This document shows positions 4,468 through 21,922 of a stretch of DNA of 21,923 nucleotides, piece after piece (positions within the stretch are counted from its first letter, which is position 1; every line of letters starts with the position of its first letter). This DNA is from a virus. Made by a program: the position numbers and the translations under genes. Location of the stretch: the IMG/VR virus record IMGVR_UViG_3300031974_000532, positions 1-21,923 of that record; one strand, written 5' to 3'. The notes under the pieces were generated by a model that ran no database searches, had not been told where the DNA came from, and saw nothing but the letters and a program-made list of their open reading frames with translations.

Positions 4468-7299
4468 TTAAACTAATGCAGTATTTTTTTCTTGTTGATC
4501 TTCTACTTGTGCAATCGGCACGCCTTCGGTTAAAATTTCTTTTTTCATGTTTGGTGTAAATAACATCATTGGAACTTTATTTGAACTATCGACACCTATT
4601 TCTAATCCAAAATCATTAATTAACCACTCGTTAATGTATGAGTCTATATCACTACCAAGTTCTTTTTGTAACTCGTCAAATGACATATTAGCGTAGGTAG
4701 CTTCATTAAGATCATCTCGTAAATATAATTGAAATTCTTTTTGTAAATATTTATTTTCTTTTGTTATTCTATAAACATCTTGAATTGTTTCTGCTTCTCT
4801 TAATCTAGTATTTTGATAATTAAATGTGGCATCAACATCAAAAGAAACGCTACCTTCATCTTGTTTACCAATAGATGCTTCATCTATTTTAGCTCCATAT
4901 TTCTTACCAAACTTATTTGTAAACTTAACTAAAGTATTATCATAAAATACTTTTAAATTATCTTGACCAGGATATCTGGCAGCTTGCATATCACCAGAAG
5001 TAAGAGCTATACCATCATAGTCATTATCTACTGCGTACTTAATTAATCGCTTCATTGTAAGTTCGTGCCAGTTCTTTTTAAATGGTGCGTCTGCAACTAG
5101 ATTAGGTAGCATAAATACATTATCTCTTTTTTGCATTAAAATATTAATCATCCTATCGTCATAATAAATTTCTTCACTATAATTATCACCATATATTTCT
5201 TTTAATTCTTTTTCTCTTAAATTTATTTCATTTTGAATTTTTTTCTTTGCATCAGAAGTATAACCTTCTTTTCTACCAGTTTGGTGTAAATCAGATTGTA
5301 TTTCTTCTATGAATAAAATTTTCTTATTGTCTATTATTCTGTCATTAAATCTTGCATGAGCTATAAGATTTTCTCCAGCATTAACTGAACCATTATAATG
5401 ATGCTTTGTATAAACTTGAGGTGAACCTGGTACTGTAATTAACATTTCCTTGTAGTTTTCTCCTCCAGGAGTTACATAACTTTCAAACATAGCTGGTTTT
5501 TTATCTGGGGTTAGTTGGTAAATGCCATATCGTTCTTCTAAAAATGTTTCAATAAAATCGTCTTCTAACATTTCGTTTTCAGATATGTTATCATTTATGT
5601 AGAACTCATCTAATTCATCATAAATTTCTTGATTATTTTTAACAATTAATTTTGCATCATCATAAGAATTTGCATTTAATAATTCTTCTGGAATATCCAT
5701 ACCTTTTTCATCACCTGGTATAAATAAATCGCTTTTATTATTTGCAGCTTGAGATCCTTCTAAAATTTCATCTTTAACTTTTGTGGTTAAAGAATTATCA
5801 GCAATAAAATCATCTAGCTGTTCTTTAGTGACACTTGGATTATCTTTTAAAAATGTATCTAAACCTAAATCTTGTATCTCTGATTGTTTAATACCAGCAG
5901 TATTATTAAGTGTAGCCAGGATCTGATTACCTGGTTGTTGTTTAAATTTAAAATTAGATATAGTTTTTTCTACATTAGAGTAAAAAGGTTTTTCTGATGT
6001 AACTAATTCATCAGCTTGTTTTATAACTTGACCAGAACTATCTACAGCTACAGCTGGTGTTATTGGTTTATTAGATGTAGCGGCAGCTCCTAGTGATTTA
6101 ATTTCTTGTACTTCGTGACCATCTCCTAATATTTTACTAAGTTCGTCAGCTTCTTCTTTTGTAGCAAAAGAGGCTATAGTAATTCCATTTTTATCTTGAA
6201 CTTTAAAATCACCATTGATGCCATTATCTTTTTCAATGCTGTATCCTAATTTCTTAGATAATTCCGTTCTGCCTTCTTTGTTATATTTTAATTTTTTCAT
6301 AAAATTATAAAGTGTTTTTGTTTTGCTTATTGTCTTAATTGTAAGACCCAAACCTAATCCAACTGGTGCATTACCAGCAGCATTTTTAAGTTTTCTTTCT
6401 AACGCAGTGTCATCATCATTAGCCGCTAAACTTTCTCTAAGAATATTTAAAACAGTTCCAGATTCTTCACCAAAACCAAAACCTTCTAGCATATTTAAAA
6501 GATTTACATCGTCTTTTTTTTGTGTGGCTCCAGCAAATTCTACACCTAGCTCTGCTAATACAGCTTTTATAATTGGTGCTTTTTTTAATTTACTGACATT
6601 ACCTAATACATCATAAATTTTCTTACCGCCTAATCCATATTGTAAAATATATTCAAACATGGGAGCTGGAGAAAATTCTTGATTTTCATATTGTATAGCG
6701 TCAGCAGATGCAACGCTTTGTGATATTTCTTGCCAACCTTCTTTTAAATTACCATCTTCATTAAATGGATGATTTTCTGCACCAGGTTGAAAATCTTCCC
6801 TCATATTCAAAAAACCATTTTTAATTTCTTCGTTAGTCACATTTAAAGTAATGTTTCCTTTACGAAATATTCTAGCCTGGTCATCAAACAATTCTCTAAT
6901 TTGACCACCAGTAATAAGTCTTGATCCTTGTTCTAAAAAATCACTAAAAGCTAATCCAGCTTTTTCTAATGATTTATACCAATCTCCTTTTGTAGATGAC
7001 ATAGACCATTTTTTTATTCCACCTAACATACTAGGTATTTTTTCAAGCATCTCTTGGCTAACTTCTTGATTATTATCTACAGCCTGTTTTATTTCATTAA
7101 TTTCCTCTGATGGTACTTCTGAAATTAAATGGGATATATCATTGTCATCAACCCCTAACATTGTTTTTGTACCTGTATCCCAATTAAAAACTGCATTTAT
7201 TTCTTTATAGTTTTTACTTGGTAGTCCTTTTTGTAATTCTGAATAAATAGGATCTTGTATATTTTCACTTTTTTGTATGTTTTGTTCTATTTCGTTCAT
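4468..7299 (-). CDS. Large polyvalent-type internal virion protein
   Basis: 943 aa. The start is an ATGA overlap with the stop of the upstream gp15-position gene. The first 200 residues are acidic and helical, with little recognisable. Residues about 270-340 hold an amphipathic/glycine-rich stretch (NAPVGLGLGLTIKT). Residues about 660-770 hold a motif set I recall from giant phage and mobile-element proteins: IEEIQSDLHQTGRKEGY, PFKKNWHELTMKRLIKYA, then YDGIALTSGDMQAARYPGQ. The function of this domain is not known to me; it may be an effector or processing domain. Position after the gp15-like gene suggests a capsid-internal protein ejected into the cell. Other phages often have such domains in one giant protein with LPD38, whereas here the LPD38-like part is a separate gene downstream. 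Confidence 0.68.
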   Translation of the reverse strand: MNEIEQNIQKSENIQDPIYSELQKGLPSKNYKEINAVFNWDTGTKTMLGVDDNDISHLISEVPSEEINEIKQAVDNNQEVSQEMLEKIPSMLGGIKKWSMSSTKGDWYKSLEKAGLAFSDFLEQGSRLITGGQIRELFDDQARIFRKGNITLNVTNEEIKNGFLNMREDFQPGAENHPFNEDGNLKEGWQEISQSVASADAIQYENQEFSPAPMFEYILQYGLGGKKIYDVLGNVSKLKKAPIIKAVLAELGVEFAGATQKKDDVNLLNMLEGFGFGEESGTVLNILRESLAANDDDTALERKLKNAAGNAPVGLGLGLTIKTISKTKTLYNFMKKLKYNKEGRTELSKKLGYSIEKDNGINGDFKVQDKNGITIASFATKEEADELSKILGDGHEVQEIKSLGAAATSNKPITPAVAVDSSGQVIKQADELVTSEKPFYSNVEKTISNFKFKQQPGNQILATLNNTAGIKQSEIQDLGLDTFLKDNPSVTKEQLDDFIADNSLTTKVKDEILEGSQAANNKSDLFIPGDEKGMDIPEELLNANSYDDAKLIVKNNQEIYDELDEFYINDNISENEMLEDDFIETFLEERYGIYQLTPDKKPAMFESYVTPGGENYKEMLITVPGSPQVYTKHHYNGSVNAGENLIAHARFNDRIIDNKKILFIEEIQSDLHQTGRKEGYTSDAKKKIQNEINLREKELKEIYGDNYSEEIYYDDRMINILMQKRDNVFMLPNLVADAPFKKNWHELTMKRLIKYAVDNDYDGIALTSGDMQAARYPGQDNLKVFYDNTLVKFTNKFGKKYGAKIDEASIGKQDEGSVSFDVDATFNYQNTRLREAETIQDVYRITKENKYLQKEFQLYLRDDLNEATYANMSFDELQKELGSDIDSYINEWLINDFGLEIGVDSSNKVPMMLFTPNMKKEILTEGVPIAQVEDQQEKNTALV

Positions 7300-18007: not shown

Positions 18008-18262
18008 TTATCCTAATAAAGTTTTGTATCCTAAGTTTGCTGGTTCATTAACACCAGTAACGGATGTCAATAAAGTACCGCCTTTACCTTTTCTCTTAGA
18101 TTTTTTACCTTCATCTCCTGGTTGTGTTGTTTCTGCCATACCTTCAGATATAGATTTTGACATTTCTACTATTGGAGGTGTTGGTAAAGGTGCTTCTTTT
18201 ATTTTTTCTAAAGTAGATTCTATTGGCATTACTGGCTTACTTTTCGATCTTAAAAATCCCAT
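18008..18262 (-). CDS. Small KTLLG-end protein (copy 2)
   Basis: 84 aa: MGFLRSKSKPVMPIEST at the start, a basic segment KKSKRKGKGGTLLTSVTGV, and end GYKTLLG. The N- and C-termini and the K-rich 'G.T.LTS' segment match the preceding 72-aa gene, so the two are tandem paralogues. I recall a similar end (rGR..TiLT...KTLLG) in small proteins next to terminase or portal genes of many podoviruses, without known function. The codons TTATTAGGATAA for LLG-stop provide the AGGA ribosome site for the 204-aa gene. Confidence 0.68.
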   Translation of the reverse strand: MGFLRSKSKPVMPIESTLEKIKEAPLPTPPIVEMSKSISEGMAETTQPGDEGKKSKRKGKGGTLLTSVTGVNEPANLGYKTLLG

Positions 18263-18266
18263 ATTT

Positions 18267-18485
18267 TTATCCTAATAATGTTTTTGTGTTAATATTTGCT
18301 TCTGTTTCATCACCCATCATTGATGTTAAGATGGTAGAAGTTCTTCCTTTTTTCTTTTTCGTTTTTTTTGCTTGCTCTTCACCAGCATCAATTACATCTT
18401 TATCAGATTCATCTGGTGTATCTGGTAAGGGTGGTACCTCTGGTATTGGTGGTGGTGGTGTTATTTTTGGTCTTAAAAATCCCAT
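18267..18485 (-). CDS. Small KTLLG-end protein (copy 1)
   Basis: 72 aa: MGFLRPKITPPPPIPEVPPL, a Pro-rich N-terminal arm, an acidic middle (DTPDESDKDVIDAGEE), a basic KKTKKKKGRTSTILTSMMGD segment, and end NTKTLLG. The ATG follows the terminase stop directly (TAAATG), and the ribosome site GGAG lies in the last terminase codons. It is paralogous to the next gene. Charge-block design suggests a flexible linker or binding peptide; position between TerL and portal suggests packaging or a head-tail role. Confidence 0.68.
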   Translation of the reverse strand: MGFLRPKITPPPPIPEVPPLPDTPDESDKDVIDAGEEQAKKTKKKKGRTSTILTSMMGDETEANINTKTLLG

Positions 18486-20843: not shown

Positions 20844-21284
20844 CTATATACAATATTGTAGTCTTTGTCGAATATTTTTTTCGTCATTAACAACAAAGGT
20901 CATCATGAATAAATTGTTTTTACACTTCTTTGCTAATGTAGATCTGTGTTTACCAAACAAATACTCCATCTTCTTCCAAGGTAATTTGTTAGCACGCATC
21001 CACAGCATCTTGCGTTCATCTTCATCTTTCACATAAGCTATCAAGTCATGCACTAAAGATAATCGAGATAACTGCTTTCCAGAAGGTGGCGGTAGCTTGA
21101 TATAAGCCTTATCCCATCCATAAGCGAGCCAATCTTTAGGTATATCAACCCATTGTGCTTTATACTCTTTAGGTTTAATGCTGGGTAATCTCCTGGCAGT
21201 TCTCATACTTTCTTCAAACCAACTCCACAAGGTGTAACTATCAATTTCAATAGTAAATCGCTGTAAATTCTTTTCAGCTCTCAT
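20844..21284 (-). CDS. DUF6362-like protein
   Basis: 146 aa. SMRTARRLPSIKPKEYKAQW (26-45), the helix LSRLSLVHDLIAYVKDEDE and the end segment MLWMRANKLPWKKMEYLFGK followed by HRSTLAKKCKNNL resemble DUF6362, a family common in phages and prophages of alphaproteobacteria. The end segment has the look of a helix-turn-helix (W..ia..fG.sR.Ta). A regulatory or packaging-linked DNA-binding role is possible. The ATG overlaps the initiator stop (ATGA). The family name is from memory of the motif. Confidence 0.65.
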   Translation of the reverse strand: MRAEKNLQRFTIEIDSYTLWSWFEESMRTARRLPSIKPKEYKAQWVDIPKDWLAYGWDKAYIKLPPPSGKQLSRLSLVHDLIAYVKDEDERKMLWMRANKLPWKKMEYLFGKHRSTLAKKCKNNLFMMTFVVNDEKNIRQRLQYCI

Positions 21285-21922
21285 TTACCATTACACATCA
21301 TCTTTGCATAATTTAATGCATCATTATGTGTTTCTTCATCGTTTAATCGATCAATCCAATCTGCATATCTTTCTCTTGATAATTTACGAACCATCAGATT
21401 ACGATATTTATATTCCATATTCTGATGATAGGTTCTTCCGCTATCGACTACTTCACGATATTTAATAGATTTAATCTTTGCTATGTGCTTCACCATATCT
21501 TTTAAATCCACGACATTACTCCTCTCAGTTGATTTATTAGTTAATTCATTAAGTTGATTATTAGTAAATTGGGGGATCAGTGCTGATCTATGTTCCGATC
21601 TGTTTTGATCTATGTTCCGATCAGTGCTGATCTCTGTTAAGAACTCAACTGATCTATAATCAATGCTGTAATCGTTAGATCTACCTGGATATCCTTTGAC
21701 ATTACGAACAAGATAACCACAGTCGATTAACTTTTTTATTACTCTTCTATCAGAGATAAGAGATATGTTTGCATCAACTGCAAAGCGTTGTTGAGATGGG
21801 AATAATTTTCCAGTTTTGTTATTAGCTCTATCTAAAAGATAGAACATTACTCTGCGTGAAGTATCGTTAAGCCTACAATCAGCATTAACGAACTTTAAGA
21901 GTTTCCACTTATTAAGCAGCAT
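21281..21922 (-). CDS. Winged-helix replication-initiator-like protein
   Basis: 213 aa if it starts at the ATG at 21922; it may extend past the window edge, one base away. Residues about 15-95 (RLNDTSRRVMFYLLDRANNK, LFPSQQRFAVDANISLISDR, RRVIKKLIDCGYLVR) form a winged helix-turn-helix of the type found in phage replication initiators and Rep proteins. A polar linker (about 95-140) is encoded by iterons and an A+T-rich repeat block. The C-terminal helical part (HQNMEYKYRNLMVRKLSRER ... NDALNYAKMM) may recruit a helicase or loader. The design parallels lambda O. A transcription regulator is the main alternative. Confidence 0.7.
   Translation of the reverse strand: MLLNKWKLLKFVNADCRLNDTSRRVMFYLLDRANNKTGKLFPSQQRFAVDANISLISDRRVIKKLIDCGYLVRNVKGYPGRSNDYSIDYRSVEFLTEISTDRNIDQNRSEHRSALIPQFTNNQLNELTNKSTERSNVVDLKDMVKHIAKIKSIKYREVVDSGRTYHQNMEYKYRNLMVRKLSRERYADWIDRLNDEETHNDALNYAKMMCNGK
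21527..21570. repeat. A+T-rich direct repeats next to the iterons (candidate unwinding element)
   Basis: AGTTGATTTATTAGTTAATT (21527-21546) and AGTTGATTATTAGTAAATT (21552-21570) are near-identical apart from one extra base, 25 bp apart. The 40 bases 21531-21570 hold only 6 G or C. They lie directly beside the iterons, where lambda-type origins have their A+T-rich melting region. Confidence 0.65.
21575..21662. repeat. Four in-register 22-bp iterons (candidate replication origin)
   Basis: Units begin at 21575, 21597, 21619 and 21641. Unit 1 is GATCAGTGCT followed by GATCTATGTTCC. Unit 2 (GATCTGTTTT, same right half) and unit 3 (same left half, GATCTCTGTTAA) each match it at 19 of 22 positions; unit 4 is degenerate (14 of 22). 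GATC occurs at 21575, 21585, 21597, 21607, 21619, 21629 and 21651, alternating at 10 and 12 bp. Each strong left half in units 1 and 3 is the inverted repeat GATCAG-TG-CTGATC. The period is not a multiple of three, so the same DNA is read in different frames. Confidence 0.85.

Follow-up and report, generated by a model that had tools for sequence, protein, structure and literature searches.

Replication of phage lambda starts inside the gene of its own initiator. Dimers of the O protein bind inverted-repeat iterons, the adjoining 40 bp of A+T-rich DNA is opened, and the P protein takes part in the loading of DnaB (PMC5043065). In vitro, two iterons can be enough when they adjoin the A+T-rich stretch (PMC7466680). 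Two further systems have features in common with the locus described here. Initiators of the RepA_N/DnaD type (pSK41, pTZ2162, RepA of the Vibrio PLE) have semi-palindromic iterons and a lineage-specific C-terminal domain, as in our case (PMC7145576), and in the alphaproteobacterial repABC plasmids the origin is contained in an A+T-rich part of the gene for the initiator, RepC (PMC3155836).

The locus most closely resembles the lambda origin in O and the origins of other lambdoid and Stx phages. As in lambda, dyad iterons stand about two helical turns apart between the parts of the gene encoding the DNA-binding N-terminus and the C-terminal part, an A+T-rich stretch follows on the 3' side, the next gene overlaps the initiator gene by 4 bp (a DUF6362 gene here, P after O in lambda), and the gene order is lambdoid with a divergent repressor. 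Unlike lambda, the locus has its own unit sequence and a stricter spacing of 22 bp, its initiator is shorter (213 vs. 299 aa) and without significant pairwise similarity to O, and a DUF6362 gene takes the place after the initiator, with no recognisable P. Lambda O served as a control: the same dyad scan returned spacings of 20, 24, and about 22.5 bp, the stability scan placed the melting minimum in A+T-rich DNA on the 3' side of the iterons, and O and P overlap by 4 bp. On the best reading, the array adds a member to a kind of origin already known, the lambda type.

The likeness to RepA_N/DnaD-type initiators lies in a DnaD-like winged helix: DnaD_N was matched by 12 of the 20 family members scanned, and the RepA_N structures 4pql, 5kbj, and 4pt7 were among the VIA-align matches (Z 7.6–7.9), tied with many unrelated winged helices. 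The RepA_N N-terminal domain (PF06970) was matched by none of the 20 members, and the PLE iterons are in a non-coding region, unlike the intragenic array described here. RP-C was weakly matched by 8 of the 20; the studied repC, unlike our array, is without iterons, and repABC is a plasmid rather than a phage system.

Genomic context

The window analysed is the whole virus record, a linear fragment of 21,923 bp. Its main genes are on the minus strand in the order tail, head, portal, and terminase, followed by the DUF6362 gene (20844..21284) and an edge gene for a 213-aa protein, the initiator (21281..21922). The start of the latter coincides with the contig edge, and relatives share the same ATG start. 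Judged by its portal protein, which is 55–59% identical to those of cultured HTVC010P-type Pelagibacter podophages, its nearest cultured relatives, the marine phage is a relative of this group. By eye, the end of the DUF6362 gene contains a helix-turn-helix-like stretch. Elsewhere in the window, two adjoining small ORFs with similar starts (MGFLRSKSKP and MGFLRPKITP; 18008–18485) probably arose by tandem duplication, and 21-bp coding repeats occupy an Ala/Ser/Thr-rich part of a tail-fibre-like gene at the contig edge (267–643).

A longer relative, L005, carries in its first part an integrase gene, phosphoadenosine phosphosulfate reductase and other small genes, and two genes in the place of the recombination functions, one of them with a weak CRISPR-associated/nuclease-type match. 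It continues with a repressor-like gene on the minus strand, beyond which the coding strand switches to plus, with a 98-aa ORF followed by the initiator gene, DUF6362, and genes for the terminase. This gene order is the lambdoid layout. Among the early genes scanned in L005, no P gene, helicase gene, or helicase loader was recognised. TATGGTC/GACC-ATA repeats in the gap that separates the 98-aa ORF of L005 from its repressor-like gene (5530–5600) are candidate repressor operators.

The minimum of cumulative GC skew in six longer relatives was located at the initiator gene or up to about 2 kb upstream. The sign of the skew tracks gene orientation, so this check, suggested along with the original prediction, yielded no independent evidence, and the skew is simply compatible with an origin at the initiator gene. 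The skew of the window itself is uninformative because the fragment end cuts at this gene. DnaA boxes numbered three in the window, below chance expectation, with none in the initiator gene.

Iteron array within the initiator gene

The array consists of four 22-bp units at positions 21575–21662 and sits in the middle of the initiator gene, about 265 bp past the start codon. On the plus strand, the units read GATCAGTGCTGATCTATGTTCC (from 21575), GATCTGTTTTGATCTATGTTCC (21597), GATCAGTGCTGATCTCTGTTAA (21619), and GAACTCAACTGATCTATAATCA (21641); on the gene strand, the array reads TATAGATCAGTTGAGTTCTTAA / CAGAGATCAGCACTGATCGGAA / CATAGATCAAAACAGATCGGAA / CATAGATCAGCACTGATCCCCC. The original description of three near-identical tandem units with a degenerate fourth in register was confirmed, and Tandem Repeats Finder reported the array with a period of 22 and a score of 100, the second-highest in the window. 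Each complete unit forms an imperfect palindrome (GATCAG-NN-CTGATC), so that palindromic sites of about 14 bp recur at 22-bp intervals. All four iterons are numbered along the minus strand. Iteron 1 (21641..21662) is degenerate, with a single good half-site and a dyad axis at about 21647.5. Iteron 2 (21619..21640) contains the dyad GATCAGCACTGATC at 21619–21632, iteron 3 (21597..21618) the weaker dyad GATCAAAACAGATC at 21597–21610, and iteron 4 (21575..21596), which adjoins the A+T-rich stretch, again GATCAGCACTGATC at 21575–21588; the dyad of iterons 2 and 4 has the form GATCAG-CA-CTGATC. The seven GATC start positions (21575, 21585, 21597, 21607, 21619, 21629, and 21651) confirmed the alternation of 10 and 12 bp noticed earlier, which follows from the dyads, 10 bp being the distance from arm to arm within a dyad and 12 bp that from unit to unit.

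The same DNA is read in different frames in successive units, as had been pointed out: CGG-AAC-ATA-GAT-CA gives R-N-I-D-Q, and TCG-GAA-CAT-AGA-TCA gives S-E-H-R-S. The strength of the repeat was expressed as a self-match score (matches minus mismatches) and compared with shuffles preserving the protein and codon usage. The best 22-bp match of the gene to itself scored 31, whereas the maximum was 20 in 1000 synonymous-codon shuffles of the gene and 13 when the linker codons were shuffled 1000 times.

In a nearest-neighbour stability scan, the initiator gene has its lowest stability over 40 bp immediately 3' of the array. This A+T-rich stretch (21525..21569, minus strand; 82% A+T) is a candidate unwinding element. 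In each representative tested, the position 3' of the array was the stability minimum of the gene or within about its lowest 6%, and the stretch is nearly unchanged between clades A and B. An 11–13-bp repeat (AACTNAT...) is discernible at 21534–21570, possibly representing unwinding-element repeats.

The initiator protein

The protein is predicted to have three parts, all encoded on the minus strand. The winged helix at the N-terminus (codons 2–87; 21662..21919), already proposed from the sequence, is backed by Pfam (HTH_36, E 1.2e-9), PHROGs, and the AlphaFold2 model, and VIA-align related it to winged helices with Z 7–9. Codons 94–137 (21512..21643), which take up most of the array together with the A+T-rich stretch, form a predicted disordered linker with pLDDT below 50 over most of its length. 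A helical C-terminal domain (codons 140–210; 21293..21505) was modelled as a separate domain with pLDDT 84. No PDB match to its fold was obtained at E below 1; we propose that it recruits the helicase. The resulting order of winged helix, iterons, A+T-rich stretch, and C-terminal domain matches that of the lambda O control, as expected from the original comparison with lambda.

HTH_36 and PHROG replication-initiation families, O-like ones included, were matched by all 20 members scanned. The protein encoded in the window matched the 'O-like' PHROG 391 at 3.2e-6 and had no match to Phage_rep_O (PF04492), which was matched by 4 of the 20 members (best 9e-5). Profile comparison with lambda O by hhalign was not significant (probability 0.2), so the sequence kinship to lambda O appears to be generic only. 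The initiator very probably acts in the manner of lambda O, and it may or may not belong to the same protein family.

Homologues and conservation of the DNA repeat

Scans of IMG/VR gave 39 initiator loci, with 28–96% protein identity to the initiator of the window, which were grouped by eye into about seven clades. A second scan of viral contigs with a wider alignment added no new contigs, and a scan of genome contigs gave no relatives. When DUF6362 and the initiators from clades A, D, G, and E were compared with public phages by tblastn, no relatives were revealed, apart from one weak match to a Bifidobacterium phage.

The alignment of homologues that had been recommended as a check showed a changing linker peptide over a DNA repeat that persists in unchanged register. 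In the nearest clade (L002–L008), the array is kept almost letter for letter. In the sister clade L013–L015 (clade B; protein identity 65–67%), the register and the number of four units are retained, with a change of both unit sequence and peptide; the units read TATGTATCAGTTCAGTCATCAA / CAAGTATCAGTTCAGTCGATAA / CAAGTATCAGTTGAGTCAAGAA / CAAGTATCAGCACAGATACCCC. In more distant clades, the same linker holds two to three units at intervals of 22 or 23 bp (or 45 = 22 + 23), either as spaced dyads of the form GACA...TGTC or GGACA...TGTCC or as CACGCCACAATTGAC repeats. Palindrome-like units 22–23 bp apart were thus present at the same place in nearly all clades, with differing unit sequence and peptide. 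Self-match scores were significant in most representatives and weak, without significance, in L016, L020, and L043. A role for GATC as such, to which the original prediction had drawn attention, is not supported; the array of the closest sister clade, clade B, contains no GATC, and the idea of an involvement of Dam was dropped for this reason.

Synonymous divergence of the iteron codons, pooled over eight sets, was 0.20 of the gene average, a value as low being reached in none of 20,000 permutations, and non-synonymous divergence (pN) was not reduced. Between L032 and L033, for example, pS was 0.08 in the array vs. 0.79 in the winged helix. Permutation clade by clade gave a significant synonymous depression in A, B, D, and F, and a non-significant result in C, E, F2, and G. 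Since synonymous divergence is low while amino-acid change is not reduced, selection acts on the DNA; judged from these patterns, the array is kept for its DNA and not for its peptide, in agreement with the earlier claim.

Function of the array and alternative explanations

Taken together, the repeat, its dyads, the DNA-level constraint, the position, the A+T-rich neighbour, and the domain layout make it highly probable that the array is the replication origin of the phage, an intragenic iteron origin of the lambda type. The original proposal of such an origin is therefore supported by the persistence of the repeat, the frozen synonymous sites, the initiator-type protein, and the lambda-like order. 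By analogy, we infer the steps of binding, dimerisation, unwinding, helicase recruitment, and transcriptional activation. The N-terminal winged helix would bind each palindromic 22-bp iteron, probably as a dimer, and the spacing of two helical turns would let the bound initiators stack along the same side of the helix. This assembly would then open the A+T-rich DNA that lies directly 3' of its sites, and the host replicative helicase would be brought in by the helical C-terminal domain, directly or via a partner, with transcription of the early rightward operon running through the origin. Clades with two units fit this scheme, because in lambda a pair of iterons beside the A+T-rich stretch can be enough in vitro (PMC7466680). 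Of the whole mechanism, helicase recruitment is the least certain step, given that the early genes scanned in L005 included no recognisable P or helicase gene; the DUF6362 product could be a helicase-loading partner or a late regulator.

An operator function of the array, either in autoregulation or for another transcription factor such as the phage repressor, with the protein being a transcriptional regulator, is unlikely. Palindromic sites would suit a repressor equally well, winged-helix proteins also regulate transcription, and the orthologues in cultured phages carry the annotation 'putative transcriptional regulator'. However, the site lies far inside the gene, adjoining its most meltable stretch, and the iteron motif recurs nowhere else in the window or in an 18-kb stretch of a relative. 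The region between repressor and initiator in L005 has its own repeated motif (TATGGTC/GACC.ATA), unlike the iterons, and the PHROGs matched by the protein are replication-initiation families.

An RNA structural element in the initiator mRNA is still less probable. The array as RNA did fold better than shuffles (z −3.4), as did those of some relatives; however, z varied from −0.3 to −4.6 across clades with differing topologies, no Rfam match was obtained, and the known DNA element of lambda reached −6.9 in the same test, so the folding is likely a by-product of the dyads. Least probable of all is a recent functionless tandem duplication or a repeat at the protein level. Slippage does generate tandem repeats, but 22 bp is not a whole number of codons, and there is no repeat in the peptide. 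Moreover, the arrangement is common to clades with 28–67% protein identity and frozen synonymous sites, and the codon shuffles and the synonymous-divergence test already contradict this explanation.

Counterparts in cultured Pelagibacter phages

The gene gp57 of HTVC010P and its orthologues comprise 19 records, mostly annotated as 'putative transcriptional regulator'. HTVC010P gp57 weakly matched O-like initiators, and the protein similarity of its family to the initiator family of the window was marginal (profile E 0.068). We examined ten gp57-type genes, namely HTVC010P gp57 (L092, 31592–32278) and the orthologues L093–L101. A linker repeat was present at 22 bp in eight of them and at 21 bp in HTVC034P; HTVC203P had no clear linker repeat. 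Most isolates have dyads in these repeats, and in HTVC024P, Greip, and HTVC100P the second unit is a perfect 7-3-7 palindrome (TAGCCGT TTT ACGGCTA). The linker contains an A+T-rich stretch, and in nine of the ten genes the melting minimum is just downstream of the repeats. Over the linker, synonymous divergence falls from about 0.6–0.8 to 0.13–0.3, and amino-acid change stays high. These sequence patterns suggest that the gp57 gene of HTVC010P-type phages is likely both initiator and origin, and represents a second, more distant family.

Our literature search found no paper joining iterons with pelagiphages and no description of the replication start of HTVC010P-type pelagiphages, the paper on Skadi included. 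For that phage, two transcriptional regulators, a helicase loader, and no DNA polymerase were reported, and rolling-circle-like replication was guessed (PMC10504331).

A wider proposal seems to us evenly balanced: that podophages of the Pelagibacter type lacking DNA polymerase genes, among them the abundant cultured HTVC010P group, would use a lambda-type origin in their 'transcriptional regulator' gene; that recognition helix and iteron would change together by clade on a frozen 22-bp geometry, giving self-contained, mutually incompatible replicons; and that the C-terminal domain would recruit the SAR11 helicase by an undescribed contact. A likely origin, one gene and one 90-bp site per genome, can hereby be named for a widespread marine phage group. 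It covers uncultured clades and about ten cultured phages, and is checkable in cultured strains. The clades also amount to a natural collection of initiator/iteron pairs whose specificity has diverged and whose geometry is constant. In the cultured isolates L092–L098, a second synonymous dip (0.22–0.35) was observed at codons about 73–94, the wing region, where amino-acid change was low too.
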